Assembly (NCBI GenBank): GCA_902512305.1
Contig: CABXIU010000010.1
Span: 1 to 55,412 of the forward strand
Direction of reading: 5' to 3'
Length of the DNA stretch: 55,412 bases
Origin: an uncultured Gammaproteobacteria bacterium
GTDB lineage: Bacteria; Pseudomonadota; Gammaproteobacteria; PS1; Pseudothioglobaceae
Within the stretch, counting starts at the first letter, position 1; the number at the start of each line of letters is the position of its first letter. Under the pieces are notes generated by a model. That model was given only the letters and a program-made list of their open reading frames with translations. It ran no database searches and had not been told where the DNA came from. The position numbers and the translations under genes were made by a program. Shown here piece by piece: positions 15,665 to 43,079 of this stretch.

Positions 15665-16774
15665 TTAAAAGCGAGAACCGGTATAGCTTACTTGGTGTTT
15701 AGCCAAAGATAACCATTCCTTGTTTATTTCAATCCCCCAGCCAGGCTTTTGAGACATCTCTAGGTTTCCGTTAACAATCTTAAAGTTTGGAGTGAAAATA
15801 TTGTCTTGCCAAGGATAGTAGTCGAGACCCTCAATGGAGAACTCTAAATACTTACCTGAATTATTGATTGAGCCCATTAAATGAGCAGAAAAAAGTGTCA
15901 CTAATGATAGGTTAGCCGCATGAAGCGTTACAGGGATATTGAATTTTTCAGCCATTCTAGCAACCTCAAGCGTCCTAGTAATGCCACCCAGGTAACAAAT
16001 GTCTGGCTGAATAATATCGACAACCTTAGTCTCAATCATATGCCTCCAAACCCTCATATCATTGTCCTGCTCTCCGCCACTTACATCAATCTCTAGTGCG
16101 TCTGTAACCTCACGTGTCCAGTCTGGCTGCCAATATGGGCAAGGCTCTTCAAAATGACTCACTCCATAATCCTGAAGCATATGTCCGACTTCGATTGCCT
16201 TTTTTGGGGTGTAAGCACTATTCGCATCAACCAGTAGAGAGACTTCATCGCCTAATACCTTTCTAACCTCTTTGATAATTGATTCGGTTCGACCGGGCCA
16301 CTGATCGATATCGTGGCCGCACTCTCTACCAATCCTGAATTTGAATGCAAAATAACCATCCTTTTCTTTTAACTGGAGTAGTCTCTCAGCTTCAGCCTCA
16401 GGAGAAATCTCGCGTTGCATACTTGAAGCGTAGACAGGGATTGAGCTTGGATTCCCACCAAGAAGCTGACAGACACTTTGATTAGCTCTTTTGGCCTTAA
16501 TGTCCCATAGTGCTGTATCAACCCCACATAAGGCCCTGTAAAGATAAGTCCCCGGAAACTTGTGCTCTCTTTCTAAGACCTCCCTGTTGACTTCAGTAAT
16601 ATCAAGTCCACTCATTCCCAAAACATGGGGAGCAACCTGAAGATGGACGACTTGTGCAGTTATTTCACTATTGTAAGTAGAAGTTTGACCCCAGCCTTCA
16701 TCCCCCTCATCGGTTCTAAGACGTACAAGTCCGACATACTCATTAGTGAAAGTTTCAACGCTAATTATCTTCAT
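15665..16774 (-). CDS. enolase-superfamily enzyme, mandelate racemase/sugar-acid dehydratase type
   Basis: The product is 369 residues with an N-terminal capping domain and a TIM barrel. Visible active-site residues are K145-x-R147 (FKFRIG) at the end of strand 2, metal ligands D183 (LVDANSAY), E209/E210 (HFEEPCPY) and E235 (SGGEQDN), the D258 segment (QPDICYLGG), and general base/acid H285 (LHAANLS). This pattern belongs to the mandelate racemase subgroup, which includes acid-sugar dehydratases and racemases. The second position of the K-x-K motif is Arg, so substrate transfer from known members is unsafe. It is 8 bases downstream of a GMC oxidoreductase, so the two likely act in one pathway. 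Substrate not recognised. Confidence 0.8.
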   Translation of the reverse strand: MKIISVETFTNEYVGLVRLRTDEGDEGWGQTSTYNSEITAQVVHLQVAPHVLGMSGLDITEVNREVLEREHKFPGTYLYRALCGVDTALWDIKAKRANQSVCQLLGGNPSSIPVYASSMQREISPEAEAERLLQLKEKDGYFAFKFRIGRECGHDIDQWPGRTESIIKEVRKVLGDEVSLLVDANSAYTPKKAIEVGHMLQDYGVSHFEEPCPYWQPDWTREVTDALEIDVSGGEQDNDMRVWRHMIETKVVDIIQPDICYLGGITRTLEVARMAEKFNIPVTLHAANLSLVTLFSAHLMGSINNSGKYLEFSIEGLDYYPWQDNIFTPNFKIVNGNLEMSQKPGWGIEINKEWLSLAKHQVSYTGSRF

Positions 16775-16782
16775 GATTGAAT

Positions 16783-18408
16783 CTATTTTCCATTTATTTG
16801 ATCCTGCAAAATTAGGTCTGAGGCTTTTTCACCGACCATAATCGTTGCAGCGTTAATATTACCACATACAAGTTGGGGAAATATCGATGCGTCAGCAACC
16901 CGAAGGCCTTCAATTCCATGAACTCTGAGACCGCTGTCAACAACATTACTATTTGGATCAGGACCCATTCTGCAGGTGCTAGATGGATGAAAAACAGTCC
17001 ACACCGTCTCTTTTATGTGCTGGATCATTTGTTCATCAGTTTGGCACTCAGACCCTGGACGAAATTCATCTCCAATGACTGAACTGAAACTATCAGTTTG
17101 AGCTAATTTTCTAAGAACCTTTACCCCCTCTAATAGATCTCTAACGTCCTCATCATGAGAAAGATAATTTGGCTCTATGATTGGATGGATCAATGGATTA
17201 CTACTTTTAATTCTCACCTGACCTCGTGAATGAGTCTTGCAATTTGAAACCCCTAGAAGCATTGCTGAAAAGGGATCAGGGCTCATCATCGCCCTCCTGT
17301 CTGGTGATTCAAGCGAATAGCTTACAGGTGAGAAATAAAGCTGGATGTTTGGCTTCTCAAGCCCTTCTCGAGTCCGAATAAATCCGCCAGACTGATTGAC
17401 ACTCAAACTCAGTGGGCCGCCTCTCGTTAATACATATCGAAGTCCTTGATAAATCTTACCCAGAAATGGCCTTAACTGGTCATTCAATGTTGGCACCTTA
17501 CTTTTATAAAAATAACTCACTCCCAGGTGGTCTTGAAGGTTTTTACCAACAGCAGGGCTGTCATGAATTAATTGCACTGAAGCTTCTTCCAAAACCTTCT
17601 TTGGACCAACGCCTGAGATCTGTAATAATTGAGGCGAGTTAATTGATCCAGCACTTATAATAACTTCACGATTAGCTGAAACTTGATGCAGCTTGCCAGA
17701 CTTTGAATACTCAACTCCATAGGCCTTTTTATTTTTAAATAAAATTCGAGTAGCCAAAGCATTTTTAAGAATAGTGAGATTACGACGACTCCTAATTGGC
17801 CACAAATAAGCTTTCGAAGAGGACATGCGCTGACCTTTGTGAGTTGTTATTTGATAGTTGCCAACACCCTCTTGGTCTTTCCCATTCATATCAGCATTTA
17901 AATGAATACCAATCTCCTGAGCTGCAGATAGAAAATTCTGGCACAAGGGATGTAAATGATTAGACACTTCTGAAACTTTTAATGGCCCATCTCCACCTCT
18001 ATAACTATCAGCCCCATTCTGCCATGATTCCATTTTTTTAAAGTAGGGAAGAACATCAGCATATGACCAACCTGGATTGCCTGCCTCAGACCATTGGTCA
18101 AAATCTTTAGGGTTGCCTCTCACATAGACCATCGCATTAATCGAGCTAGAACCTCCCAACACTTTTCCTCTTGGCCAATAGCTAGGCTTATTGTCGGCAT
18201 CTGGACTAGGCTCAGTCATATACATCCAGTTGACCGCTTTTTGATGGTAAGTTTTGCCATAACCAATTGGCATTTGAATAAAGAAACGGTGATCTGAACC
18301 ACCAGCCTCCAAAAGCAATACTTTGTTGCGAGGGTTCTTACTAAGTCTATTAGCTAGAACACAACCAGCAGAGCCTGCACCAACGACAATATAATCGAAA
18401 TCTTTCAT
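16783..18408 (-). CDS. GMC-family FAD oxidoreductase, choline dehydrogenase-like
   Basis: This 541-residue flavoprotein has the N-terminal dinucleotide-binding motif VVGAGSAGC (8-16), the GMC signatures around GKVLGGSSSINAMVYVRG and GSINSPQLLQISGVGP, and a C-terminal active site with H474 (HPSSTCRMG) and N519 (GNINAAT). GMC enzymes oxidise alcohols such as choline and polyethylene glycol. The length and motifs match BetA-type choline dehydrogenases, but no betaine-aldehyde dehydrogenase accompanies it. The symbol betA is therefore withheld. It heads a two-gene leftward operon with the enolase-superfamily enzyme and is divergent from a TSUP permease. The nearby proXWV locus makes a choline- or betaine-related substrate plausible, not proven. 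Confidence 0.85.
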   Translation of the reverse strand: MKDFDYIVVGAGSAGCVLANRLSKNPRNKVLLLEAGGSDHRFFIQMPIGYGKTYHQKAVNWMYMTEPSPDADNKPSYWPRGKVLGGSSSINAMVYVRGNPKDFDQWSEAGNPGWSYADVLPYFKKMESWQNGADSYRGGDGPLKVSEVSNHLHPLCQNFLSAAQEIGIHLNADMNGKDQEGVGNYQITTHKGQRMSSSKAYLWPIRSRRNLTILKNALATRILFKNKKAYGVEYSKSGKLHQVSANREVIISAGSINSPQLLQISGVGPKKVLEEASVQLIHDSPAVGKNLQDHLGVSYFYKSKVPTLNDQLRPFLGKIYQGLRYVLTRGGPLSLSVNQSGGFIRTREGLEKPNIQLYFSPVSYSLESPDRRAMMSPDPFSAMLLGVSNCKTHSRGQVRIKSSNPLIHPIIEPNYLSHDEDVRDLLEGVKVLRKLAQTDSFSSVIGDEFRPGSECQTDEQMIQHIKETVWTVFHPSSTCRMGPDPNSNVVDSGLRVHGIEGLRVADASIFPQLVCGNINAATIMVGEKASDLILQDQINGK

Positions 18409-19377: not shown

Positions 19378-20394
19378 ATGAAACTAATAAATAAATTATT
19401 AGCTGTTACCGCTATTTCTCTCAGTATGGTGCCTGGTATCGCCAGCGCCGACTGTGGAAAAGCGAGATTAGCAGACTTCGACTGGAGTAGTGCGAATGTT
19501 CATACTGCCATTGTAGGCTTTATTCTAGAACATGGCTACGGCTGTGAAGTAGAAGTCACCAAAGGAAGTACAACTCCAATTATGGCTGCTCACTATGATG
19601 GTCAATTGGATATTGTAACTGAACTCTGGTATGACAATATTGTGGCTAACTATGACCCAGTTGAAGAAGCTGGAATAATTAGAAATCTTGGCATTAATAC
19701 GCCAGACTCACAACAAGCATTCTATGTTGATAAAACAACAGCAGACAAATACAACTTAAAAACTGTATTAGATATGCTAGATCCTGAAGTTGCAGCGTTA
19801 TTCACTGATCCTGAAGATCCTTCTAAAGGAAGAATGACAAGCTGTATCTCTGGATGGACTTGCTACACTGTGAACTATGTCAAACAAAAAGTATATGGTT
19901 TAGATAATTACTATACAAACTTTGATCCAGGTTCAGGTGGTGCTTTAGATGCAGCGATTGCTGGTGCTTTTGCTAAAAAGCAACCAATCTTTACATACTA
20001 TTGGGCACCAACAGGTCTCATGGGTAAGGTTGACCTAGTTAGATTAAAGGAGCCACCATACAATGATGCATGCTGGGGAGCAATGTCTACAGTTGTAGAA
20101 ACTATCAAGGCTGAAGGTAAAGACGCATATACCGCTACTTGTGCAACTGAATACAGAGACATGTCTTTAGATAAATCAGTTCTTACTTCTTGGGCGGATT
20201 CTCACCCAGAAGAAACTGCATTCCTAGAAGCATATAGCTTGCCAACTGATATGGTTAACAAGCTTCTCGCCTTCTATGAAGACGAGTCTGATGGAGATAT
20301 GGAGCTTACTGCACTTGAATTTCTAGAAAATTCAGATGACTGGAAAGCTTGGGTCTCAGCAGACGTTGCTGCTAAAGTTTCTGCAGCGCTGTAA
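19378..20394 (+). CDS. proX: periplasmic glycine betaine/quaternary amine-binding protein of an ABC transporter
   Basis: This 338-residue OpuAC/ProX-type protein has a clear Sec signal peptide (about 1-24, ending IASA). The body has the features of choline/betaine-binding proteins: STTPIMAAHYDGQLDIVTELW early, SGWTCYTVNY in the middle and TYYWAPTGLMGKVDLVRL later. Its aromatic residues would form the cation-pi box for the quaternary ammonium group. The exact ligand (glycine betaine, proline betaine, carnitine, choline) is not readable. Gene order here is X-W-V, reversed from E. coli proV-W-X. A terminator immediately after the stop likely raises proX mRNA over the membrane components. Confidence 0.9.
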   Translation: MKLINKLLAVTAISLSMVPGIASADCGKARLADFDWSSANVHTAIVGFILEHGYGCEVEVTKGSTTPIMAAHYDGQLDIVTELWYDNIVANYDPVEEAGIIRNLGINTPDSQQAFYVDKTTADKYNLKTVLDMLDPEVAALFTDPEDPSKGRMTSCISGWTCYTVNYVKQKVYGLDNYYTNFDPGSGGALDAAIAGAFAKKQPIFTYYWAPTGLMGKVDLVRLKEPPYNDACWGAMSTVVETIKAEGKDAYTATCATEYRDMSLDKSVLTSWADSHPEETAFLEAYSLPTDMVNKLLAFYEDESDGDMELTALEFLENSDDWKAWVSADVAAKVSAAL

Positions 20395-20410
20395 GTATGA
20401 TTTAACATAA

Positions 20411-20441
20411 AAAAAAGAGCTCACTCGTGAGCTCTTTTTTT
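20411..20441 (+). terminator. rho-independent terminator between proX and proW
   Basis: GAGCTCA (20417-20423) and TGAGCTC (20428-20434) form a 7-bp stem with loop CTCG, extended by an A-run on the left and T-run on the right (20435-20441). It lies 22 bases after the proX stop. The symmetric A/T flanks allow function in both directions. Because proW follows within 16 bases, this is best read as a partial terminator setting the proX:proWV ratio. Confidence 0.88.
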
Positions 20442-20456
20442 CATAACTGTCTATTT

Positions 20457-21458
20457 ATGATAAGAAAACTACTCACATATTTGACCTTCCCAATTATTTT
20501 TGTTTGGCTCTTGATAACGAGCTATAACTCATCAAAGAGAAAGCCAGACAGTGTCATGGAGCTCTTTACAGATCTAAGCTGGCTGAATGACTGGCCCAAG
20601 TGGCTTGATATTCCGCTGATGAAATGGATTAATGATGGATTTAAAGTCTTCAATGAAGAGTATGGAATTTATTTTGAAATAGTAAATAATTTTTTACTTG
20701 GAGCAATCCTCTCTTTAAAGAAGTTCTTAATCATGATGCCATGGCCTCTAGTTATTGCTCTTGTAGTCGCAATTGTATTTTTCTCTAGCGGAAGAAAGCT
20801 AGGGACAACAGTTTTTGTAGGTATTTGTACATTCTTTATAGGTTTTCTTCATCCAAAGTTTTGGGATAAAGCGATTGAAACAACTTCAATCATGATTATT
20901 GGAATTTTAATTTGTATTATTATTGGTATACCTTTAGGTATTACCATGTCTAGAAGTAATAGGGTCCGCAATGCAATACTACCGGTCCTGGATTTAATGC
21001 AGACAATCCCAAGTTTTTGTTATCTCATTCCAGGAATTATGCTCTTTGGCCTTGGCGCTGTTCCAGCAATTATTGCAACCGTTATTTATGCAGTTCCTCC
21101 TTTAGTTCGATTGACTGACTTAGGAATTACATTAGTAGATACTGAAGTCATTGAAGCGGCTGAAGCCTTTGGCGCAAGTAAAAAACAAAAACTACTGGGC
21201 GTGCAGCTTCCTCTTGCACTTCCAAATATTATGCAGGGTATTAACCAGTGCACCATGATGGCTTTAGCGATGGTCGTCATTGCCTCAATGATTGGTACTA
21301 GAGGTCTTGGTGACGAGGTATTACTCGGCCTTCAACAGCTTAATGTTGGAAAGGCTACTGAGGCAGGACTAGCAATTGTTCTCTTGGCAATTGTTCTAGA
21401 TAGAATTACTCAGGCTTATGGTAAAAAAATTCAAGACAGAAATAGCCCACCTAAATAA
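20457..21458 (+). CDS. proW: ABC transporter permease for glycine betaine-type substrates
   Basis: The protein is 333 residues from ATG 20457. A longer reading frame opens at GTG 20427, but that codon lies inside the terminator stem, so it is rejected. An N-terminal membrane segment (about 4-21) and a long hydrophilic stretch precede the permease core. The binding-protein-dependent transport domain has the EAA-like loop EAAEAFGASKKQKLLGVQLPLALPNI. The MSRSNRVRNAILPVLDLMQTIPSF region is typical of ProW/OpuAB. It pairs with ProV, which starts 9 bases downstream. Confidence 0.9.
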   Translation: MIRKLLTYLTFPIIFVWLLITSYNSSKRKPDSVMELFTDLSWLNDWPKWLDIPLMKWINDGFKVFNEEYGIYFEIVNNFLLGAILSLKKFLIMMPWPLVIALVVAIVFFSSGRKLGTTVFVGICTFFIGFLHPKFWDKAIETTSIMIIGILICIIIGIPLGITMSRSNRVRNAILPVLDLMQTIPSFCYLIPGIMLFGLGAVPAIIATVIYAVPPLVRLTDLGITLVDTEVIEAAEAFGASKKQKLLGVQLPLALPNIMQGINQCTMMALAMVVIASMIGTRGLGDEVLLGLQQLNVGKATEAGLAIVLLAIVLDRITQAYGKKIQDRNSPPK

Positions 21459-21467
21459 TTTCATACT

Positions 21468-22502
21468 ATGTCAAAAATCGAAGTAAATAATATTTATAAA
21501 ATATTTGGCCCTAAGCCTGAGCAAGTATTACCAATGGTCAAAGATGGTGCTAGTAAAGATCAAGTTCTGGAGGAGACGGGTCATACTGTAGGCCTTGATA
21601 ATGTCTCTCTATCCATTGAAGAAGGTGAAATTTTTGTTTGTATGGGTCTTTCCGGCTCCGGAAAATCAACATTAATCAGGCACATTAATAGATTGATCGA
21701 CCCGACCTCAGGTGAAGTCATTGTAAATAACGTTGATGTATGCAGTCTTGACGAAAAAGAAATTTTAGACTTTAGAAAAAAAACCATGAGCATGGTATTC
21801 CAGCGATTTGGTCTTTTCCCTCACAAAACCATTATTGAAAATGTCGCCTATGGTCTTGAGATTCAAGAAGTTCCAGAGGATCAAAGAGTTGAAATTGCTC
21901 AAGGACAAATTAATGCAGTTGGACTGGAAGGCTTTGAGCATCAGTATCCGGCCCAATTATCTGGAGGAATGCAGCAAAGAGTTGGACTAGCAAGAGCTCT
22001 AGCAACGGATCCTCAGATTCTTTTAATGGATGAGGCATTTAGTGCCTTAGACCCACTCATTAGAAGTGACATGCAAAATCAATTGGTTGACCTACAAGCC
22101 AAACTTAAGAAAACAATTGTATTTATAACCCATGACCTTGACGAATCCCTCAAACTGGGTGACCATATTGGAATACTGAATGGTGGAAGACTGGTTCAAG
22201 TTGGAAGACCAGAGGATATTATTCTTAATCCTGCAGATGATTACGTTAAAGCATTTGTAAAAGATGTTAACCGCTCTAAAGTTCTCAGAGCTAAAACTGT
22301 CATGACCAAACTCGATAAGTTTGATAAATCATCAATCAATCCATCCTCAACATATAAGTATGATGAGAATACCTATATCGAAGACTTACTTCCTAAAGTT
22401 TTAAAAGATCGGTCAACAATCGAGGTCATCAACAATAAGGGAACCACTACAGGCTTCATTACTTCTGATGAACTCTCATTAGCACTAACTAAAACAAAAT
22501 AA
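21468..22502 (+). CDS. proV: ABC transporter ATP-binding protein for glycine betaine-type substrates
   Basis: The protein has 344 residues with Walker A GLSGSGKST (60-68), signature LSGGMQQRVGLARA and Walker B ILLMDEAFSALDP, plus the switch histidine in VFITHDLDE. The N-terminal extension before the ATPase core and the GSGKSTLIRHINRLIDPTSGE context are ProV-specific. It is shorter than E. coli ProV (400). The C-terminal tail after residue about 270 holds at most one reduced CBS-like segment, so ionic-strength sensing by paired CBS domains may be altered. It energises uptake with ProW and ProX. Confidence 0.92.
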   Translation: MSKIEVNNIYKIFGPKPEQVLPMVKDGASKDQVLEETGHTVGLDNVSLSIEEGEIFVCMGLSGSGKSTLIRHINRLIDPTSGEVIVNNVDVCSLDEKEILDFRKKTMSMVFQRFGLFPHKTIIENVAYGLEIQEVPEDQRVEIAQGQINAVGLEGFEHQYPAQLSGGMQQRVGLARALATDPQILLMDEAFSALDPLIRSDMQNQLVDLQAKLKKTIVFITHDLDESLKLGDHIGILNGGRLVQVGRPEDIILNPADDYVKAFVKDVNRSKVLRAKTVMTKLDKFDKSSINPSSTYKYDENTYIEDLLPKVLKDRSTIEVINNKGTTTGFITSDELSLALTKTK

Positions 22503-22518
22503 CCCCTGATTGAATTCT

Positions 22519-23289
22519 GTGAGCAAAAATATAGTTATTTCAGCAGCGGCAGATGGAATTGGCTGGTGTATCGCTAGCTGTTTTTTAGATCAAGGGTATA
22601 CCGTTTATGCATCCGACATTAATCAGAATAAAATTGATCAACTGAATACGCATCCGCTGATTAATAAAAGATTATTTATTGACAATGTGAATGCTGGAGA
22701 TGCGGCCTCAGTAAAAAAATACTTTAAATCCCTGAAATTAAAAGTATCCAGTATTGATGCCTTAATCAACAATGTCGGTATCGCTGGTCCAACTGGGACA
22801 ATGGAAGATATCTCAGTCGAAGACTGGAAACAAACAATCGAGACTAATTTAAATAGTCATTTCTATTTTACAAAACATGCTATACCACTTTTAAAGAAAA
22901 ATAAAGGCGGCTCAATTGTTAATCTATCATCAACTGCGGGAATCTTTGGGTTTCCATTAAGAACTCCTTATGCCGCCTCTAAATGGGCAATAGTAGGACT
23001 CACTAAATCACTAGCTATGGAGCTGGGTAAATTCAATATCAGAGTGAATGCAATATGTCCAGGCTCAGTATCTGGAGATAGAATGGATCGAGTGATTGAA
23101 GCAAAAGCAAAATCTATTAACAAGAGTGAGAGAGAAATTAGAGAAAGTTTTGAGGGAATGGCCTCACTTAATACTTTCGTTGACAAAGAAGACATCGCCA
23201 ATATGGCTGTATTTCTCTTGTCTGAGAAAGCATATAGAATCTCAGGCCAAATAATGAGCGTAGATGGTAATACAGAGAGGATGGACTAA
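22519..23289 (+). CDS. short-chain dehydrogenase/reductase co-operonic with proXWV
   Basis: This is a 256-residue classical SDR from GTG 22519 (an in-frame TTG at 22510 is the alternative). The catalytic serine, tyrosine and lysine are S137 (NLSSTAG), Y151 and K155 (YAASK), with NNVGIAG as the structural motif. The cofactor loop reads SAAADGIG instead of TGxxxGIG, with alanine for the first glycine. I recall the same substitution in DHRS6/BDH2-type hydroxybutyrate dehydrogenases. The aspartate in YASDIN favours NAD(H). It starts 16 bases after proV, so it likely acts on the imported compound. A 3-hydroxy acid such as carnitine or its CoA ester is a reasonable but untested substrate. Confidence 0.82.
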   Translation: MSKNIVISAAADGIGWCIASCFLDQGYTVYASDINQNKIDQLNTHPLINKRLFIDNVNAGDAASVKKYFKSLKLKVSSIDALINNVGIAGPTGTMEDISVEDWKQTIETNLNSHFYFTKHAIPLLKKNKGGSIVNLSSTAGIFGFPLRTPYAASKWAIVGLTKSLAMELGKFNIRVNAICPGSVSGDRMDRVIEAKAKSINKSEREIRESFEGMASLNTFVDKEDIANMAVFLLSEKAYRISGQIMSVDGNTERMD

Positions 23290-23311
23290 ATAAATTTAGT
23301 TCTTTATAAGC

Positions 23312-23953
23312 TTAGTGAAGTCCTGCAATGTATTCAGATAATGCATCAATCTCTTCATTTGTTAAGCCCTTTGCCACATTATTCATCATCTCATTAACTC
23401 TTTGAACACCATCAGAGTCAGTCTGTTTATTGATAGAGTACTGTCGAAAAGCTTTCAATTGAGACGCTGTATATTCAGCATGTTGCGCGCTTAGAGCTGG
23501 GAAGCCTGCAGTTGGTATACCTTCACCTTTTGGTCCGTGACAAGCAATACACGCAGTAGTTTGCGTATCCATTTTACCGCCAACATAAATTTTTCTGCCA
23601 AGCTCAATTTTTTCTTCTGAACCCTTCGCAGAATTTTCACTTATAGTTTGGATTGAGTAGTAAGCGGCAATATCTTCAATATCTTGCTCAGAGAGCAATG
23701 AGGCCACACCTGCCATCATTGCATTATTTCTTTCACCCGATTTAAAATGTTGAAGTTGCTTAACTAGATAAGCCTGTCCCTGTCCAGCTAGCTTTGGAAA
23801 ATCAGGAATCGTACTATTTCCACCGAGACCATGGCAACCCATACAAGTTGCTGACTTTGCTTGGCCTGCCTCTGCATCACCTGCAGCAATAATAGGATTG
23901 CTTAAAGTGACTAGTAAAGAAGCTAAAATAATAACGATTTTTTTCATTCTCAA
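23312..23953 (-). CDS. cytochrome c4-type dihaem cytochrome
   Basis: This 213-residue exported protein has a signal peptide (about 1-24, ending IIAA) and two haem c sites: C37-x-x-C40-H41 and C135-x-x-C138-H139. Methionines suited as distal ligands occur after each (NAMMAGVA near 77-84; MNEMMNNVA near the end). The two-domain repeat and length match cytochrome c4, which feeds electrons to cbb3 or other terminal oxidases. It is the leftward neighbour of a monohaem cytochrome and converges on the SDR gene. It may serve general respiration or accept electrons from a dehydrogenase nearby. Confidence 0.9.
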   Translation of the reverse strand: MRMKKIVIILASLLVTLSNPIIAAGDAEAGQAKSATCMGCHGLGGNSTIPDFPKLAGQGQAYLVKQLQHFKSGERNNAMMAGVASLLSEQDIEDIAAYYSIQTISENSAKGSEEKIELGRKIYVGGKMDTQTTACIACHGPKGEGIPTAGFPALSAQHAEYTASQLKAFRQYSINKQTDSDGVQRVNEMMNNVAKGLTNEEIDALSEYIAGLH

Positions 23954-23972
23954 TCTCCAAAAATTCCAAGAA

Positions 23973-23978
23973 ATTATA
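23973..23978 (-). promoter_or_regulatory. candidate -10 box for cytochrome c4 gene
   Basis: The minus strand reads TATAAT 19 bases upstream of the cytochrome c4 start. A weak -35 (TTTCTT) sits 17 bases further up. The predicted leader is short (about 13 bases). Confidence 0.45.
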
Positions 23979-24034
23979 CGTGATATTTAAAGGTTAAGAA
24001 ACCCTCAAATCATTCATAATTTAAAAAGAAAAAA

Positions 24035-24346
24035 TTATCTTTGTGGGTCTTGAATCGAAAGGTACTCTGCAATCGATCTTTCAAAGCCTGCTGCCATAGG
24101 AGCCATAGCATTCATATAAGAGTTTTCACGCTCGCCCGATTGAAAATACTCAAGTTGCAGAATAATCCATTCAACATCTTTACCTGCAAGAGAGGGAATT
24201 GATTCGTCATTAGAGCGTCCATTTGCACCATGACAGCTAGCACAACCAAGAGCACTATACATTGCCTCACCTTCACTATTAGCAAAAGAACCTATAGAAA
24301 AAGTAGTTAAAACAAAAGCGATTAATATATAAAAAATCTTTTTCAT
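24035..24346 (-). CDS. small monohaem c-type cytochrome
   Basis: This 103-residue periplasmic cytochrome has a signal peptide (about 1-22, FANS cleavage region) and one haem site, C35-x-x-C38-H39 (CASCHG). A methionine-rich segment (MNAMAPMAAGF) near residue 80 can give the distal ligand. It resembles one half of cytochrome c4/c553 proteins. It lies 81 bases upstream of the cytochrome c4 gene and has its own likely promoter. It probably transfers electrons in the periplasm; the partner is not identifiable. Confidence 0.87.
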   Translation of the reverse strand: MKKIFYILIAFVLTTFSIGSFANSEGEAMYSALGCASCHGANGRSNDESIPSLAGKDVEWIILQLEYFQSGERENSYMNAMAPMAAGFERSIAEYLSIQDPQR

Positions 24347-24375
24347 AAATACGCGCCTTATTTGCGACTGATTAG

Positions 24376-24381
24376 ATTATA
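24376..24381 (-). promoter_or_regulatory. extended -10 promoter for the monohaem cytochrome gene
   Basis: The minus strand reads TGGTATAAT, a TGN-extended -10, 29 bases upstream of the cytochrome ATG. A TTGAGT lies 19 bases upstream of the box. The extended -10 would compensate for the long spacer. This separates cytochrome transcription from the caiD operon upstream. Confidence 0.6.
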
Positions 24382-24417
24382 CCAATTTCTAATATAGTAA
24401 ACTCAAGTTGCCAGAAG

Positions 24418-25203
24418 TTATTTTCCTTTCCATTTAGGGGGGCGTTTTTCAGAAAAAGCCAATGGCCCTTCTTTTGCATCCTCAGAATTAAGCATTTTTT
24501 GATAGGCTTCAATTTTTCCCGAACGCATCAATTGGTAAGCAGCCTCTATATCCATCATTTCTGTAGATCTAATAACTGACTTTATTGCCGCCAAAGAAAG
24601 TGGTGCAGACTTAGAAATTTGATGAGCCCACTCAAGCGCCTCATTAATTAAGTCTTTTTGATCACAGCTGTGGTTAACAAGACCATAATGTTTTGCCTCA
24701 TCTACACCCATTCTACGACCGGTCATTAGCATATCTATAGCCACTGATTTTGGTAATCGTCGTGGGAGTCTTAGAACGCCGCCACTGTCTGGAATAATTC
24801 CTAATGTTGCTTCAGGAACAAAAAATTCTGCATTGCTAGAGGCAATAATTAGGTCTGCAGCAAGCGCCAACTCAAATCCACCGCCAACTGCCAATCCATT
24901 GACAGCTGCTATAACGGGTTTGTCTAGGTCCCACAATTCTGTCAGACCTGCAAAACCACCAGGCCCAAAATCAGCGTCAACAGCCTCGCCTTCGGATGCC
25001 GCCTTTAAATCCCATCCGCCACAAAAAAAGCGGTCTCCAGCACCAGAAATGACAGCAACCTTTAAATCATTGTTATCCCTGAATTGAATAAATGCATCCC
25101 CAAGCGCATGACTCGTTTTTGCATCAATTGCATTCGCTTTAGGACGGTTCAAAGTGATTAAAACAACTTCACCGTGCACCTCAATATTTACTACATCATT
25201 CAT
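24418..25203 (-). CDS. caiD: carnitinyl-CoA dehydratase (crotonobetainyl-CoA hydratase)
   Basis: This crotonase of 261 residues has exactly the length I recall for E. coli CaiD. Near-identical blocks include RPKANAIDAKTS at the N-terminus, GWDLKAA, DADFGPGGFAGLTE, LDKPVIAAVNG, GGGFELALAAD, PDSGGVLRLP, MTGRRMG and EGPLAF.EKR.P.WKG at the end. This is far closer than general enoyl-CoA hydratases. CaiD reversibly hydrates crotonobetainyl-CoA to L-carnitinyl-CoA. The oxyanion-hole pieces (FFCGGW and NGLAVGGG) are intact. It is last in a leftward operon: thioesterase, acyl-CoA dehydrogenase, NDP-forming CoA ligase, caiD. The E. coli partners CaiB/CaiC are absent, so the CoA carrier chemistry must differ. 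Confidence 0.88.
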   Translation of the reverse strand: MNDVVNIEVHGEVVLITLNRPKANAIDAKTSHALGDAFIQFRDNNDLKVAVISGAGDRFFCGGWDLKAASEGEAVDADFGPGGFAGLTELWDLDKPVIAAVNGLAVGGGFELALAADLIIASSNAEFFVPEATLGIIPDSGGVLRLPRRLPKSVAIDMLMTGRRMGVDEAKHYGLVNHSCDQKDLINEALEWAHQISKSAPLSLAAIKSVIRSTEMMDIEAAYQLMRSGKIEAYQKMLNSEDAKEGPLAFSEKRPPKWKGK

Positions 25204-25220
25204 AATTCTCTCAATATATA

Positions 25221-27278
25221 TTAATTTGAGTTTAATCTGATAAGTGTATCAGCTGCAACAACTCCATTTTTCTCTTTTAACACTAATAATGGATTGATAT
25301 CCAACTCCTCTACATCATTAACTTTGATTAATTCAATTACAGACATCACTACATCTATCACAGCTTCAATGTCTCCTTTTAAGTCATCTCTATAACCTTG
25401 AAGCAATTGGTAGACTTTTAATTTTGATAAAGCCTGCTGAATATCCTCTCTACTAACCGGCAAAATCAGTACTGAGCTGTCTTTCAAAAGTTCAACAAAT
25501 ATACCGCCCGCACCAATAATAATATGCTTGCCAAAAGTAGGGTCATGATCAATACCAATAATAAGCTCACAAACAGAACCTTCAATCATTTTTTCAATAA
25601 GAAGTACAGAACTAATCTTAAATAAATCATTGCACGCCTCTTCCAACATTATTGAATTTTGGATATTTAATCTTACGCCGCCCAATTCTGTCTTGTGTGA
25701 CAATTTAGTAACTGAGACTTTGAGTGTGATTGGATAAGTAATGTCTTCAGCAGCCTTTAAAGCTTCAGTTAGATTCTTAACTAAGAACCCCTTTGGAATT
25801 GGAATGCCGTATTCCATTAGAAGTTGCTTGCCCTCAAATTCAGTTAATTGTTTATTAATTTTATTTTCTCTGTGGGTGTTTAGAATTTTTATTTCAGGCA
25901 TTGGTTTGCTTGCAAAAGCTTGCCCAATTTTGTAGGAGTGGTTGAGTGCTTTGAGACAAATATCTAGACCAATCATAGGAGCAATACCTAAATTCAAACA
26001 CTCTTCTATAATTCTTTTTGGCATGCAGTCATCCATAGATGCTAGCACTATTGCTTTTTCACTAGTTCCTGAGATGGCATCTGAGAGTGCTAAAAGAGTT
26101 GAATCCCAGTCTTTTTGTTCCGACTCTTGAGTTTTGGGCCAATCTAATAAAAGCATTGTTGCAGCAAATCGGTCACTAATCATTGCCTTGAAGCACTCAG
26201 ATGTTCTTTTTCGATCACCCCAAATAAAAGTATGATAATCAAGTGGATTATCAACCTCAACATATTCATTTAGTGTTTGCTTTACTCTGGCTTTGTGGGA
26301 TTTAGTAAGGCTTGGGAAGGTAATCTCCATACCGTCAATTAAATCGGCCATCATCCCTGCCTCTCCACCCGAACAACTCATTGAGGCAACACCGTTATGT
26401 TTAATGACACCCAAAACACTAATCAGTTTTAGAGTTTCTAGAAACTCTGGAACAGTATCTACTCTGGCAACTCCAAGTCGCTCAAAAAAGACACTATATA
26501 ATTCATCTGAACCAGTCAATGAACTGGTATGACTGAGAGCAATCTTGGCAGAGGCTTTTGTTTTCCCTGATTTGATTGCAATGATTGGAACTTTCATTTT
26601 TTGTGCTCTTCTTGCAGCAACATCAAATGACTCAACGTCAGAGATGCCCTCAATGTGCAAACCAATTGCGTTGACTCTTGAATCATCTAGCATCGCATGA
26701 ATAATATCTGCGATATTAGTGTTTGTTTGATTTCCAAGAGTGAACATATAAGCAATTTGAAGGCCAGAAGACTGCATAGTCATATTAAGACCTATGTTTC
26801 CACTTTGAGTAATGATTGCAACACCCTTAGCAACAGGCTCACATCCATGGACATCTGGCCAAAGAGCAATACCATCCAAGCTATTGATAAAGCCATAACA
26901 ATTTGGCCCAATAAGTGGCATTCCATCAGCAGCTTTTAGTAGTCTCTGATTCCGCTGAAACCCTTCTTCACCAACTTCTCCAAATCCAGAAGCATATAAA
27001 ACTGCCCCGCCACCACCCATTGACTTTAAATCAGATACAATATCAATAGCAGTTTCTGCATTAACAGCTATAAATGTCGCATCAGGAGCTTCAGGTAAAT
27101 CTTTAATATTTCTAAAACATTTGATACCTTCAAGCGAATCAAGAGAGGGGTGTATCGCCCATATTTGTTTTTTAAAACCTAACTTAATTGACTCTTTGAT
27201 CGCAAAATTTGCCCCTCGATTACCAACTACAGCAATTGACTTTGGTGAAATTAATCGACGCAAATTACCCTTGTTCAT
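25221..27278 (-). CDS. NDP-forming acyl-CoA synthetase (ACD family, fused alpha-beta)
   Basis: The protein is 685 residues. The alpha half has a CoA-binding Rossmann domain (1-125; SPKSIAVVGN, PLIGPNCYG) and two ligase domains with phosphohistidine H250 (ALSHTSSLTGSD). The beta half is an ATP-grasp domain (about 465-685; LMEYGIPIPKGF, HKTELGGVRL). Family members form an acyl-CoA from acid, CoA and ATP through a phospho-enzyme; the DMSP-CoA ligase DddX belongs here. Co-transcription with caiD makes a trimethylammonium acid (carnitine, crotonobetaine, gamma-butyrobetaine) the most likely substrate, with DMSP as alternative. It replaces the AMP-forming CaiC of E. coli in this setting. Substrate is inference. 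Confidence 0.85.
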   Translation of the reverse strand: MNKGNLRRLISPKSIAVVGNRGANFAIKESIKLGFKKQIWAIHPSLDSLEGIKCFRNIKDLPEAPDATFIAVNAETAIDIVSDLKSMGGGGAVLYASGFGEVGEEGFQRNQRLLKAADGMPLIGPNCYGFINSLDGIALWPDVHGCEPVAKGVAIITQSGNIGLNMTMQSSGLQIAYMFTLGNQTNTNIADIIHAMLDDSRVNAIGLHIEGISDVESFDVAARRAQKMKVPIIAIKSGKTKASAKIALSHTSSLTGSDELYSVFFERLGVARVDTVPEFLETLKLISVLGVIKHNGVASMSCSGGEAGMMADLIDGMEITFPSLTKSHKARVKQTLNEYVEVDNPLDYHTFIWGDRKRTSECFKAMISDRFAATMLLLDWPKTQESEQKDWDSTLLALSDAISGTSEKAIVLASMDDCMPKRIIEECLNLGIAPMIGLDICLKALNHSYKIGQAFASKPMPEIKILNTHRENKINKQLTEFEGKQLLMEYGIPIPKGFLVKNLTEALKAAEDITYPITLKVSVTKLSHKTELGGVRLNIQNSIMLEEACNDLFKISSVLLIEKMIEGSVCELIIGIDHDPTFGKHIIIGAGGIFVELLKDSSVLILPVSREDIQQALSKLKVYQLLQGYRDDLKGDIEAVIDVVMSVIELIKVNDVEELDINPLLVLKEKNGVVAADTLIRLNSN

Positions 27279-27284
27279 AAAGCG

Positions 27285-28442
27285 CTATTCAAATGGTCTG
27301 AGTAATGATCTAGAAATAATATGCCTTTGTATTTCGCTTGTTCCATCCCAAATTCTCTCAACTCGATGATCTCTCCATATTCTCTCTAAAGGGAGTTCAT
27401 CCATCAATCCCATGCCACCTAAAATTTGAATAGCTTCATCAGAAATCATTGCAAGCGTCTCGGTTGCTTTGAGTTTTGCCATAGCGGCGTCACTGTTTGA
27501 CATTTCGCCTTGAGTATCCTTCCATGCAGCCTTCAAGGTTAGAAGTTCAGCGGCATTAAGCTCCGTTGACATATCAGCAAGTTTAAAAGATACGCCTTGA
27601 AATTTTCCTATCGTTTGACCAAATTGTTCACGTGTTGCAGCCCATTCTGTAGCAATCTGTAAAGCCCTTTCAGATCTACCAAGGCACATTGCTGCAACAG
27701 ATAATCGAGTGGCACCTAGCCACTCATTGGCAACATCAAATCCATGATCGACCTCACCTAAAACCTTCGATTCATGAACTCGGCAATTATCAAAATTAAG
27801 AATAAAATTATGATAACCCCTATGTGAAACACTATTGTAGCCTGGCTCAACTGAAAACCCTGGAGTACCCATATCAACTAAAAAACTTGTTATCTTTTTC
27901 TTTTCACCTCTCGAAGTTTGTTCAACTCCAGAAGCAGCAAATAAAATAACATAATCAGCCATATCTGCATGACTAATAAAATGTTTAGAACCATTGATTA
28001 CAAAAAACTCGCCGTCTCTTTCAGCTTTACACTTCATAGAGCGAACATCAGAGCCCGCATTTGGCTCTGTCATAGCAAGACAGTCAACCTTATCTCCTCG
28101 TATTGTTGGGAGAAGATATTCATCAACCTGTGCCCCTTTGCAAGCCAATAAAATATTGCTTGGTCTGGCCACAATATACTGGAGACCAAAATTAGCTTTC
28201 CCCAATTCCTTTTCTAATAAACATAATGTAAGTGAATCTAATCCACCGCCACCATGAACCTCAGGCATATTACATGCATAAAGACCACTTTCAATTGCTT
28301 TTTGTTTTATTTGATCAACAACTGATTTCTCAATCTGATTAGTCTTCTCGACTTCATCTTCAAAAGGATAAAGCTCTTTTTCAACAAAACTTTTGACAGA
28401 GTCAATGATCATTTGTTGTTCATTTGAAAGACCAAAATTCAT
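27285..28442 (-). CDS. acyl-CoA dehydrogenase in the caiD operon
   Basis: The product is 385 residues from ATG 28442 (MNFGLSNEQQ), which has AGGA about 8 bases upstream. A longer frame begins far inside the thioesterase gene and is rejected. The FAD-binding and substrate segments MTEPNAGSDV, WAATREQFGQTIGKFQ and QILGGMGLM are typical. The position of the usual catalytic glutamate (YEGTSE in MCAD/SCAD) reads WDGTSE, giving aspartate D366. A likely reaction is gamma-butyrobetainyl-CoA to crotonobetainyl-CoA, the dehydrogenation that precedes CaiD. It is not close to E. coli CaiA by eye. It starts 22 bases after the thioesterase stop. Confidence 0.87.
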   Translation of the reverse strand: MNFGLSNEQQMIIDSVKSFVEKELYPFEDEVEKTNQIEKSVVDQIKQKAIESGLYACNMPEVHGGGGLDSLTLCLLEKELGKANFGLQYIVARPSNILLACKGAQVDEYLLPTIRGDKVDCLAMTEPNAGSDVRSMKCKAERDGEFFVINGSKHFISHADMADYVILFAASGVEQTSRGEKKKITSFLVDMGTPGFSVEPGYNSVSHRGYHNFILNFDNCRVHESKVLGEVDHGFDVANEWLGATRLSVAAMCLGRSERALQIATEWAATREQFGQTIGKFQGVSFKLADMSTELNAAELLTLKAAWKDTQGEMSNSDAAMAKLKATETLAMISDEAIQILGGMGLMDELPLERIWRDHRVERIWDGTSEIQRHIISRSLLRPFE

Positions 28443-28464
28443 TTCTATTCCTATAAGTAAATAA

Positions 28465-28989
28465 TTATTTGATTTGCATAACTCGACCTTTTTGCTTCGG
28501 TAAAGGTAATTTTTTATGACAACTCCAGATTTTTTGAAGTATTTTAAATACAGATTCATCAATCTCATTTGCCCTAGCTTTTTTCATATCAACGTGGACC
28601 AGCATTTGCTCAGTCGTCGCCAACAATTCACCACTATTGCCATGAAGCATTTGATGAAAAATGTGTAGTTTTTTTGAGTCAAGACCGAGTATTTGAGTGC
28701 TAAACTTTAATGGCTCGCCATGTGAAGCCTCTAAATAGTAATTAATGTGAGTTTCTACGGTATAGAAAGATTGTCCGGCCAATCTGTAATCATTATCAAT
28801 GCCAATATATTGAAATAATGCATCTGATGCATCGCCAAATGCATAGAGGTAAAATGATTCGCTCATATGGCCATTGTAGTCAATCCAATCTGAATGAACT
28901 TTGGCATTATAAAGAGCCAAAGGCTTATCTAAATTATCGTCTTGAGAATAATATTGATACTCTCTTGTTAGATATACTTCATTGTCCAT
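28465..28989 (-). CDS. hotdog-fold thioesterase, betainyl-CoA thioesterase-like
   Basis: The product is 174 residues from ATG 28989 (MDNEVYL); an in-frame TTG two codons upstream is less likely. The 4HBT-type hotdog core has VHSDWIDYNGHMSESFYLYA, GDASDALFQYIG and YTVETHINYYLEA, then LATTEQMLVHVD. From memory this segment order matches the betainyl-CoA thioesterases that accompany, or are fused to, L-carnitine dehydrogenase in Pseudomonas and rhizobia. Those release glycine betaine from betainyl-CoA. It is first in the leftward operon ending with caiD. Substrate identity by context is moderate; a general thioesterase cannot be excluded. Confidence 0.82.
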   Translation of the reverse strand: MDNEVYLTREYQYYSQDDNLDKPLALYNAKVHSDWIDYNGHMSESFYLYAFGDASDALFQYIGIDNDYRLAGQSFYTVETHINYYLEASHGEPLKFSTQILGLDSKKLHIFHQMLHGNSGELLATTEQMLVHVDMKKARANEIDESVFKILQKIWSCHKKLPLPKQKGRVMQIK

Positions 28990-29044
28990 ATTCAATTAAT
29001 AACAAATGTAGAAATAGAATGTTATGAGAACTCAATTAATTATG

Positions 29045-35126: not shown

Positions 35127-37073
35127 TCATTCTAGCTCTTTGAGATTATAGTATTCTTCCAAAATTTCAGGATTCTCTAATGCTGTTTTATTATCAATTG
35201 GTAAGTTATTTATTGCCTTTTGAACAGCTAGCTCGACAATCTTTCCACTCTTTGTTCTTGGGATATCTGAAACCTGAAGTATCATATCAGGTACATGCCT
35301 AGGAGTAGTATTGCTTCTAATTTGATTCACGATTTTTTCTTTTAATGTTACACTCAGTTGTTTATCTTTATCTAACTTTACAAATAGAATGATTCTAGAA
35401 TCATCGTCCAAATTTTGCTCTACAACAATAGACTCTATTACTTCATTTAGAAGCTCAACTTGTCTATAAATTTCAGCTGTACCTATTCTTACTCCATCTC
35501 GATTCAAAGTCGTATCTGAACGGCCGTAAAAAATCATGCCGTCATTATCCATGAGCTTTACATAGTCGCCATGGCACCATACATTAGGGTAACGTGAAAA
35601 ATAGGAATTTGCATATTTTCTCCTACCCTTGTCATCCCAAAACATTATTGGCTTGGATGGGAAAGTCTTGGTACAAACCAATTCACCTTTCTGCTCTTTA
35701 ACTGGCAAACCCGATTCATTCCAAACCTCAACTGACATCCCTAGCCCCCTAGTCTGAAGCTCTCCTCGGTATACTGGAAGTATATTTGAGCCCAAGACAA
35801 AACATGAAACTATGTCAGTGCCACCTGATATAGAGGAAAGACAGATATTGCTTTTAACCTTATCATAGACATAATCAAAACAATCTGAACTTAGCACAGA
35901 GCCGGTAGAAAGAATCATTCTGAGCGAATCTAGCCTGTGAGAATGGATTGGGCTTAGTTCTTTTTTCCGACAAGCATCAACAAATTTTGCAGATATTCCC
36001 ATGACATTGAATTTCTCTTTTTCTGCATAATCAAATAATATGCTTTCATTATTTTTTAGAATTGGTGACCCATCATAAAGCATTAATGTTGCACCAGATG
36101 CCAACCCACTAATAAGCCAATTCCACATCATCCAACCACATGTCGAAAAGTAAAAAACTCTTTCGCCTTCTCTTATATCACAATGAAGAATGTGTTCTTT
36201 TTTATGTTGAATTAATGTCCCTCCAACTCCGTGGACAATACACTTTGGTACCCCCGTTGTTCCAGAAGAAAACAAGATATAAAGAGGGTCATTAAACTGA
36301 ACACTTTCAAAAGTTATCTCTGAATCTCCAGCAGTATTGACAATTTCATCAAAGCTAGAGCAAAAATTTAAACTGTTAATTGATGCGTTAGTGTCAATAT
36401 AACGAACAAGTAAAGTTTTTTCTAATGTTGGCAATTTTGTAATAATACTTTGATTTTTTTTAAGACAATCAAAAACCTTGCCATTGTAAAGGTATGAATC
36501 TACACAAATAAAAACCTTTGGCTCGACTTGGCCAAAACGATCTAAAACTCCCTGAACACCAAAATCAGGCGAGCATGATGTCCATATTGCGCCAATACTT
36601 GAAGTGGCTAACATTGATACAACAGCTTCAGGCATATTTGGAAGAAAACCTGCAACACGATCACCTTTTTTCACACCCTTACTTCTTAACCACATCGATA
36701 AGTTTGCCACCTGAGTGAATAGTTCATTGTATGTGAGTGAGGTTTTATACTGGTCTTCACCCCAAAAAATAACCGCATCACTATCATCTCTTTTAGATAA
36801 GAGATTTTCAGCAAAATTTAACTTTGCATCTGGAAACCATTCTGACTCTAATAAATTAGCTCCATTTTTTAGAACATTGGAAGAGCCTCTATCTGCGATT
36901 ATTAAGGAGAATTCGAAGAAAAGCTCCCAGAAAGATTCTGAGGATTTACATGACCATTGATACAATTCATGAAAATTTGTTAGTTTTAATTTATATTTAT
37001 GATTCACCTCTTGCATGAATTTCCATGCCTGGCTAATTTCAACTTCTGAAGGACTCCAAAGTAATTTATTCAT
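35127..37073 (-). CDS. acetoacetyl-CoA synthetase (acetoacetate-CoA ligase)
   Basis: This 648-residue ANL-superfamily enzyme carries the adenylate signature LFSSGTTGVPKCIVHG and the acetoacetyl-CoA synthetase hallmarks FYFSTCGWMMWNWLISGL and SISGGTDIVSCFVLG. FYGRSDTTLNRDGVRIGTAEIYR and the PRTKSGK lysine loop also fit. Length matches AacS/AcsA2 enzymes. It activates acetoacetate to acetoacetyl-CoA in the cytoplasm; the thiolase encoded near 42 kb could then cleave it to two acetyl-CoA. The gene lies 4 bases after an M81-family gene. Acetoacetate is also a product of the known carnitine-to-betaine pathway, a possible functional tie to the caiD block. Confidence 0.92.
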   Translation of the reverse strand: MNKLLWSPSEVEISQAWKFMQEVNHKYKLKLTNFHELYQWSCKSSESFWELFFEFSLIIADRGSSNVLKNGANLLESEWFPDAKLNFAENLLSKRDDSDAVIFWGEDQYKTSLTYNELFTQVANLSMWLRSKGVKKGDRVAGFLPNMPEAVVSMLATSSIGAIWTSCSPDFGVQGVLDRFGQVEPKVFICVDSYLYNGKVFDCLKKNQSIITKLPTLEKTLLVRYIDTNASINSLNFCSSFDEIVNTAGDSEITFESVQFNDPLYILFSSGTTGVPKCIVHGVGGTLIQHKKEHILHCDIREGERVFYFSTCGWMMWNWLISGLASGATLMLYDGSPILKNNESILFDYAEKEKFNVMGISAKFVDACRKKELSPIHSHRLDSLRMILSTGSVLSSDCFDYVYDKVKSNICLSSISGGTDIVSCFVLGSNILPVYRGELQTRGLGMSVEVWNESGLPVKEQKGELVCTKTFPSKPIMFWDDKGRRKYANSYFSRYPNVWCHGDYVKLMDNDGMIFYGRSDTTLNRDGVRIGTAEIYRQVELLNEVIESIVVEQNLDDDSRIILFVKLDKDKQLSVTLKEKIVNQIRSNTTPRHVPDMILQVSDIPRTKSGKIVELAVQKAINNLPIDNKTALENPEILEEYYNLKELE

Positions 37074-43067: not shown

Positions 43068-43079
43068 AATGTTCTCCAG

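Follow-up and report, generated by a model that had tools for sequence, protein, structure and literature searches.

The window analyzed here, 55,412 nucleotides forming contig C10 of genome G000, belongs to a SUP05-cluster relative of the family Pseudothioglobaceae and carries a four-gene operon that we assign, with a probability of roughly 0.8, to the upper half of a pathway from gamma-butyrobetaine (GBB) via L-carnitine to glycine betaine. The genes are tightly packed on the minus strand (24418-28995), with intergenic gaps of 22, 6, and 17 bases: a hotdog (4HBT_2) thioesterase (28465-28995, with an ATG at 28989) comes first, followed by an acyl-CoA dehydrogenase (27285-28442), an NDP-forming acyl-CoA ligase that is likely a GBB:CoA ligase (25221-27278), and the crotonobetainyl-CoA hydratase CaiD (24418-25203). 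Family and domain matches identify the thioesterase and the dehydrogenase, complemented by a tree for the former and by solved relatives for the latter; the ligase is identified by domain matches and by residue and locus comparisons, and CaiD by NCBIfam, comparison with the E. coli protein, and a tree. The assignment is based on gene presence, gene order, protein kinship, and co-occurrence, from which we infer the substrates, the direction, and the pairing of thioesterases with esters. An earlier note on this DNA had proposed a route of this beta-oxidation-like kind from GBB or carnitine to glycine betaine; the placement of CaiD, the conservation of the cluster, and its linkage to BKACE and carnitine dehydrogenase support it. 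All genes named there stand where it placed them, and their domains agree with the names given.

Proposed pathway

In the proposed sequence of reactions, the ligase would use ATP to convert GBB to GBB-CoA, which the acyl-CoA dehydrogenase would oxidize to crotonobetainyl-CoA. Hydration by CaiD would yield L-carnitinyl-CoA, from which the stand-alone thioesterase of the window would release free L-carnitine. Carnitine would then be oxidized to 3-dehydrocarnitine by an L-carnitine dehydrogenase fused to a thioesterase, BKACE would convert 3-dehydrocarnitine and acetyl-CoA to acetoacetate and betainyl-CoA, and hydrolysis of the latter by the fused thioesterase would yield glycine betaine. The acetoacetate may be recovered by two enzymes encoded in the window, an acetoacetate--CoA ligase (35127-37073, minus strand; 905.8 bits, cut-off 639) and a thiolase (41880-43067).

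CaiD and the acyl-CoA dehydrogenase

The crotonase of the operon is predicted to be a genuine CaiD. It matches the NCBIfam model of crotonobetainyl-CoA hydratase with 388.9 bits (next family, 243) and is 59.4% identical to CaiD of E. coli K-12 over 261 positions with zero gaps. A tree of 84 rows unites E. coli CaiD with 80 operon-type CaiDs (matches above 200 bits) on one 98/95 branch, outside which stand only three rows: PDB ID 3r0o (named carnitinyl-CoA dehydratase), PDB ID 3r9t, and one further crotonase. The protein thus groups with E. coli CaiD and not with other crotonases, as the earlier note had expected, while the position of the E. coli protein within the operon group is weakly supported (88/54 branch). 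Two glutamates, which we take to be the active-site residues, are conserved in 82 of 82 rows. In this tree, as in the thioesterase tree and the dehydrogenase residue counts below, some named and unnamed loci share genomes, and the rows are not independent.

The open reading frame listed for the acyl-CoA dehydrogenase starts too early: its family match begins at residue 43, so the true gene probably spans 27285-28442 and the overlap with the thioesterase gene disappears. Among solved structures, short-chain acyl-CoA dehydrogenases are closest to it, and in NCBIfam it matches acryloyl-CoA reductase best (270 bits, cut-off 640). The position presumed to hold the catalytic base is occupied by Asp in 37 (window included) and by Glu in 38 of 75 operon dehydrogenase rows. 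The enzyme presumably converts gamma-butyrobetainyl-CoA to crotonobetainyl-CoA. The Asp/Glu swap itself looks like a natural exchange within one pathway.

The second locus

Enzymes for the lower half of the pathway are encoded at the very edge of contig C2. There, a BKACE gene (G000:C2:71-982; 318.6 bits) adjoins a gene for a 492-residue L-carnitine dehydrogenase fused to a thioesterase of the window's kind (G000:C2:985-2463), the fused protein scoring 721 bits against NCBIfam carnitine 3-dehydrogenase (cut-off 592). Another BKACE match, on contig C3 (147.6 bits), lies beside what by eye are glutathione S-transferase-like and FAD monooxygenase-like proteins. The window contains no BKACE, both genome matches being on other contigs, and within it carnitine dehydrogenase matches the thioesterase and a FadB-type protein (26% identical), nothing else. 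No class III CoA transferase of the CaiB family was found in G000 (1.48 Mb in 34 contigs, 89.6% complete) in a search that gave a clear signal in the E. coli control. The earlier note had reported BKACE, a recognizable L-carnitine dehydrogenase, and CaiB as missing from the window, which was correct, and had left the 3-keto-CoA step to a thiolase or to an enzyme elsewhere. The latter alternative stood, with BKACE and L-carnitine dehydrogenase side by side at G000:C2:71-2463, and the thiolase did not: because both enzymes are encoded on another contig, no thiolase acting on a 3-keto-CoA ester is needed.

Convergent with the carnitine dehydrogenase gene lies an MttB-family methyltransferase gene (G000:C2:2460-4001, also in L054; Pfam MTTB, 708 bits). 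It may encode a glycine betaine demethylase acting on the end product of the pathway.

A route kept entirely at the CoA level, in which carnitinyl-CoA would be oxidized to 3-dehydrocarnitinyl-CoA and cleaved by a thiolase to betainyl-CoA for hydrolysis by the window thioesterase, seems very improbable. The window does encode the thiolase within a thiolase/FadB-type block (41880-45518), as well as a short-chain dehydrogenase/reductase (SDR) of a pathway-associated clade. However, the block sits with FadE- and FadD-type genes and resembles an ordinary beta-oxidation block, gene-by-gene inspection of four operon loci revealed no thiolase, and the genome possesses BKACE together with carnitine dehydrogenase, the latter occurring in 37 of 37 ligase-carrying genomes. 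Equally little credence is given to a different trimethylammonium or short-chain acid as the substrate, or to a reversed flow in which the conversion of carnitine to GBB would serve as an electron sink. The substrate assignment does derive from sequence, and Enterobacteria run carnitine via crotonobetaine to GBB (PMC2131755). Against these readings stand the lack of any CaiB family member among the genes found in the genome, a dehydrogenase that is not CaiA-like, has short-chain solved relatives, and bears an acidic residue at the base position, and the linkage to BKACE and carnitine dehydrogenase.

Distribution and linkage

Among 95 genomes, strong ligase matches (at least 500 bits, weaker matches to other superfamily proteins being dropped) occur in 26: in 23 of 29 from the same genus (own genome included), in both g5 genomes, in none of 29 from other genera of the family, and in one of 35 from the wider class (G076). 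Two of the counted matches (G001 and G013) are cut by contig ends. The named loci mark this lineage as one of Candidatus Thioglobus/SUP05-cluster genomes. Carnitine dehydrogenase, counted as strong from 700 bits or, for G076, at 388, has a closely similar distribution (24/29, 2/2, 0/29, and 1/35, again G076). The order thioesterase-dehydrogenase-ligase-CaiD is held in all 26 ligase loci as far as the contigs extend, which bears out the conservation among relatives on which the earlier note had made its reading depend. In G076, a distant gammaproteobacterium, the thioesterase forms the terminal part of the fused protein, and BKACE, the dehydrogenase-thioesterase, acyl-CoA dehydrogenase, ligase, and CaiD form one row on the minus strand. 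A divergent AraC/GATase-type regulator adjoins that row, its best model being GbdR (253 bits, cut-off 480).

The gene set is not unusual, as the earlier note had called it, but a widespread operon, present as one unit with BKACE and carnitine dehydrogenase in many Rhizobiales including Sinorhizobium meliloti. The same set, varying in order and strand, occurs in Mesorhizobium, Phyllobacterium, Aminobacter, Kiloniella, Aestuariispira, Novosphingobium, Rhizobium, and betaproteobacteria. One of two Streptomyces loci also has the set, with the dehydrogenase on the opposite strand, and the second (L089) shows neither the dehydrogenase nor BKACE. The best 80 of at least 507 confirmed relatives represent the closest loci rather than a random selection. 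Among those with sufficient flanking sequence, 69 of 69 have acyl-CoA dehydrogenase upstream of the ligase, and 73 of 75 have CaiD next to the ligase. Where at least 5 kb upstream are available, BKACE is present in 46 and a same-strand carnitine dehydrogenase in 47 of 66 loci; 13 of the 19 loci that lack the latter belong to the window's own lineage.

Co-occurrence was assessed in 398 Pseudomonadota genomes, with the G076 ligase as the query (E <= 1e-100) and a threshold of E <= 1e-40 for carnitine dehydrogenase. The ligase is found in 37 of them and carnitine dehydrogenase in 68: it is present in every ligase carrier (37/37) versus 31 of 361 other genomes (Fisher p 1e-33, uncorrected for kinship). 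The two genes are within 6 kb of each other in 21 of the 37 pairs and within 60 kb in 25.

Several observations weigh against the assignment. The score of CaiD lies below the curated NCBIfam cut-off of 500, that of the ligase is likewise below its curated cut-off, and the acyl-CoA dehydrogenase shares 29.8% identity with E. coli CaiA. The halves of the pathway are unlinked in the window's lineage: in two genomes that each consist of one contig, 0.24 Mb separate them (G005) or they lie far from each other (G028). Carnitine dehydrogenase is solely on another contig in 10 of the 37 ligase carriers, the genome studied here included, and more than 0.8 Mb away in two more. Within the genus, six of 29 genomes have no strong ligase and five no strong dehydrogenase, and these are mostly different genomes: the ligase occurs alone in G012, G014, G018, and G023 (57-77% complete), and the dehydrogenase alone in G002, G004, G015, G020, and G026, of which G002 and G026 are more than 90% complete. 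A real loss of the upper half in places within the genus is likely. As to the transporter genes convergent on the operon, the closest solved relative of the substrate-binding protein, PDB ID 7yle (31% identity over 283 positions), is taken to be the DMSP-specific protein RnDmpX, and a close relative of the window (L070) has the SDR with no transporter match in the available stretch.

The CoA ligase

The ligase consists of CoA-binding, Succ_CoA_lig, and ATP-grasp_5 domains. Its best solved relative is DddX (252 bits), nearly equaled by a 4-hydroxybutyrate ligase (248 bits). The phosphohistidine of DddX (His292), common to the whole NDP-forming ligase superfamily (PMC8163506), corresponds to His250 of the window protein and is His in 81 of 81 ligases. 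The reported catalytic base Glu432 and cation-pi residue Trp391 of DddX (PMC8163506) are both replaced: the former site is Gln388 in the window and across the 81 ligases never Glu and 22 times Asp, and the latter is His349, with His in 76 of 81. Two other sites are Trp throughout (81/81 each), namely Trp391 of the window protein, at the position of DddX Phe435, and Trp140, at that of Tyr181. These conserved aromatic side chains could hold a trimethylammonium group, and the window ligase appears to be without the base that cleaves dimethylsulfoniopropionate (DMSP)-CoA.

The kinship with DddX raises a further alternative, a DMSP cluster composed of a DddX-type ATP-dependent DMSP lyase, a DmpXWV transporter, and acyl-CoA enzymes handling acryloyl-CoA. 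Besides the 252-bit match, this would accommodate the acryloyl-CoA reductase match of the dehydrogenase, the Asp, likewise acidic, at the DddX base site in 22 of 81 ligases, and the substrate-binding protein, which keeps six of the eight DMSP-pocket residues of RnDmpX at 31% identity. Yet the 4-hydroxybutyrate ligase scores almost as high, Glu432 is replaced by Gln in the window and preserved in none of the 81 ligases, Trp391 is His, and the genes that recur with the ligase encode CaiD, BKACE, and carnitine dehydrogenase, which have no known role in DMSP cleavage. Such a cluster seems very improbable. As a candidate function of the ligase itself, DMSP lyase is disfavored by the absent base and by the gene partners.

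Thioesterases

In NCBIfam, the window thioesterase best matches the C-terminal portion of PRK07531, carnitine 3-dehydrogenase (172 bits). In a tree of 64 rows (matches shorter than 270 bases dropped, one row with an internal stop read as X, and a long-branch warning given), one 97/95 branch divides two sides. The first comprises seven stand-alone thioesterases adjoining carnitine dehydrogenase, PDB ID 2hlj (titled as a hypothetical protein and presumably from P. putida), and eight others. On the second are the fused thioesterases together with the stand-alone ones that accompany acyl-CoA dehydrogenase, including that of the window. The latter (27 rows) form two supported groups (95/96 and 99/99) and not a single one: two changes are needed, and 0% of bootstrap trees have one. 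Seven loci (L087, L090, L092, L098, L099, L130, and L138) possess one thioesterase per enzyme, on opposite sides of the tree, and both thioesterases of L114 fall on one side. In seven Phyllobacterium loci (L103, L106, L110, L117, L129, L137, and L139), a divergent thioesterase gene is located beyond the regulator, and no thioesterase match lies between carnitine dehydrogenase and acyl-CoA dehydrogenase.

Carnitine dehydrogenase acts on free carnitine (PMC2131755), so carnitinyl-CoA must be hydrolyzed beforehand. Most simply, the window thioesterase would free carnitine from carnitinyl-CoA. Its likely substrates are L-carnitinyl-CoA and/or betainyl-CoA, and we lean toward carnitinyl-CoA as the ester that it mainly serves. 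In S. meliloti, the carnitine-oxidizing protein reportedly also hydrolyzes carnitinyl-CoA. A single protein of that organism is reported to oxidize carnitine and convert betainyl-CoA to glycine betaine (PMC12482172).

Transporter, SDR, and neighboring genes

A plus-strand gene set (19378-23289) converges on the operon. It encodes an OpuAC-type substrate-binding protein of a betaine/DMSP-type ABC transporter (19378-20394; family and domain matches), a permease of the ProW/ChoW type (20427-21458; family match), an ATPase of the ProV subfamily (21468-22502; 365.5 bits, cut-off 326.6), and, as the last gene, the SDR (22510-23289; tree and locus comparison). In the SDR tree, which has some long branches, the window protein forms a 100/100 clade with 13 SDRs of its lineage and 12 from operons, 14 SDRs remaining outside. 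Those 12 are encoded between the genes for carnitine dehydrogenase and acyl-CoA dehydrogenase in operons of alphaproteobacteria, such an SDR being present in 12 of the 80 closest loci. As a guess, the window SDR may be a D-carnitine dehydrogenase. Since an SDR of the pathway clade stands behind the transporter genes, the transporter is tied to the pathway by association.

The kinship of the binding protein speaks against this tie, and the substrate of the transporter may be DMSP. The relative 7yle is taken to be RnDmpX, a DMSP-specific binding protein, because its residue numbers match those in PMC10030565; the PDB title does not bear that name. The two pocket residues not kept in the window protein are E113, replaced by Gln, and A153, replaced by Thr. 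The same source gives the RnDmpX pocket residues and reports DmpX in Candidatus Thioglobus (PMC10030565).

Two cytochrome c genes lie between the convergent sets. Their matches are limited to loci of the same genus, with none in G042, G076, or the alphaproteobacterial loci, and they are taken as unrelated to the pathway. Farther along, minus-strand genes encode a GMC (choline dehydrogenase-like) oxidoreductase (16783-18408) and an enolase-superfamily protein of the mandelate racemase group (15665-16774). Two Kiloniella loci and one locus from Rhodospirillales (L088, L107, and L121) also have relatives of this pair (window 15665-18408) downstream of the carnitine operon, the GMC proteins being 61-63% and the enolase-superfamily proteins 69% identical; in L107 an aldehyde dehydrogenase-like gene is next. 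A link of these genes to the pathway is only possible.

Other quaternary-amine genes in the genome

G000 encodes three TauD-family genes, two of which were scanned. The one on contig C4 passes both TIGR02409 (488, cut-off 414.75) and TmpA (424, cut-off 400), and the next gene encodes a TmpB-like HD protein (260.5, cut-off 300); a TmpAB setting is likelier for it than a function as GBB dioxygenase. A PhyH-type dioxygenase (by eye), the TmpA-like dioxygenase, and the TmpB-like HD oxygenase lie in a row (G000:C4:108174-110818; L146 5175-7819), near genes that by eye resemble homocysteine methyltransferase and dimethylglycine dehydrogenase. The row likely represents 2-trimethylaminoethylphosphonate breakdown, another quaternary-amine route.

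On contig C5, a trimethyllysine dioxygenase-like protein is encoded (G000:C5:60010-61110; L145 1120-2223, also L147; TIGR02410, 294, cut-off 268.3). Its relatives of at least 475 bits occur in 14 of 29 genomes of the same genus (own included) and in none of 66 others, and its closest solved relatives are GBB dioxygenases. The protein could start GBB synthesis from trimethyllysine. A broader proposal must be regarded as speculative and rather unlikely to hold in full: that the thioesterases linked to acyl-CoA dehydrogenase are dedicated L-carnitinyl-CoA thioesterases, that the upper half is a module from GBB to free L-carnitine which dispenses with O2-dependent hydroxylation, and that this SUP05 relative both makes GBB, by way of the trimethyllysine dioxygenase-like gene, and consumes it.

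Comparison with known systems

The route from GBB to glycine betaine of Bazire et al. 2019 (J Bacteriol 201:e00772-18) reportedly comprises five enzymes and seven steps. It is the S. meliloti pathway from GBB via L-carnitine to glycine betaine (Bazire et al. 2019, cited in PMC12482172). BcoAB of this species has been used as an ATP-dependent GBB:CoA ligase (PMC8364193), and we infer that it is the ligase of the S. meliloti locus. In strain Ak57 (a 3.7 Mb record labeled pSymB), a GlxA-type regulator, BKACE, carnitine 3-dehydrogenase, acyl-CoA dehydrogenase, the ligase, and caiD lie in a row, the ligase matching in two pieces with no gene listed. Identities to the proteins of the window genome are 67% for BKACE, 50% for carnitine dehydrogenase, 63% for acyl-CoA dehydrogenase, 42-43% for the ligase, and 46% for CaiD. 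Both systems keep the ligase, acyl-CoA dehydrogenase, and CaiD together and have BKACE and the fused dehydrogenase/thioesterase in the genome. S. meliloti, however, has a single locus, whereas the window genome has two unlinked ones, an additional stand-alone thioesterase gene preceding that of the dehydrogenase, and an SDR gene following the transporter genes; no regulator was recognized next to the window cluster.

With the E. coli cai operon, the window genome shares a CaiD relative (59.4% identity), but no CaiB family member was found in it, its dehydrogenase is 30% identical to CaiA, and its ligase is NDP-forming, while CaiC is AMP-forming. The Lonza strains HK4/HK13, production strains from a soil Rhizobium/Agrobacterium relative, use the same succession of thioesterification of GBB, dehydrogenation, hydration, and L-carnitine dehydrogenase (PMC3546705, PMC2131755), a likeness at the level of the described route; in HK4, GBB passes through its CoA ester and an unsaturated ester to L-carnitine (PMC3546705). 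An Arctic SAR11 island encodes a GBB dioxygenase, carnitine dehydrogenase, and BKACE and is thus similar in marine use of GBB and carnitine via the latter two, yet it employs the O2-dependent dioxygenase where the window genome would employ CoA-ester chemistry (PMC12421898). DddX shares the NDP-forming superfamily and the phosphohistidine and differs in Glu432, which is Gln in the window, and in its gene partners (PMC8163506). The bbu system of Emergencia timonensis, which converts GBB to trimethylamine, resembles the operon in GBB-CoA, an acyl-CoA dehydrogenase family protein, and a thioesterase, but depends on two class III CoA transferases, a class not found in G000, is anaerobic, and releases trimethylamine (PMC8364193).

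Among the matches listed in searches of the open-access literature, at most 30 per search, no description of this cluster in Pseudothioglobaceae appeared. The chemistry of the pathway is known; new are the marine lineage, the split layout, and the extra thioesterase. The other half on a second contig explains why the cluster looks incomplete, the recurrent SDR represents a further candidate enzyme of carnitine metabolism, and the two-thioesterase layout provides a simple test case for separate carnitinyl-CoA and betainyl-CoA hydrolases. If correct, the assignment would place the use of GBB and carnitine by CoA-ester chemistry in a globally distributed marine lineage, as Pseudothioglobus is described (PMC12421898).

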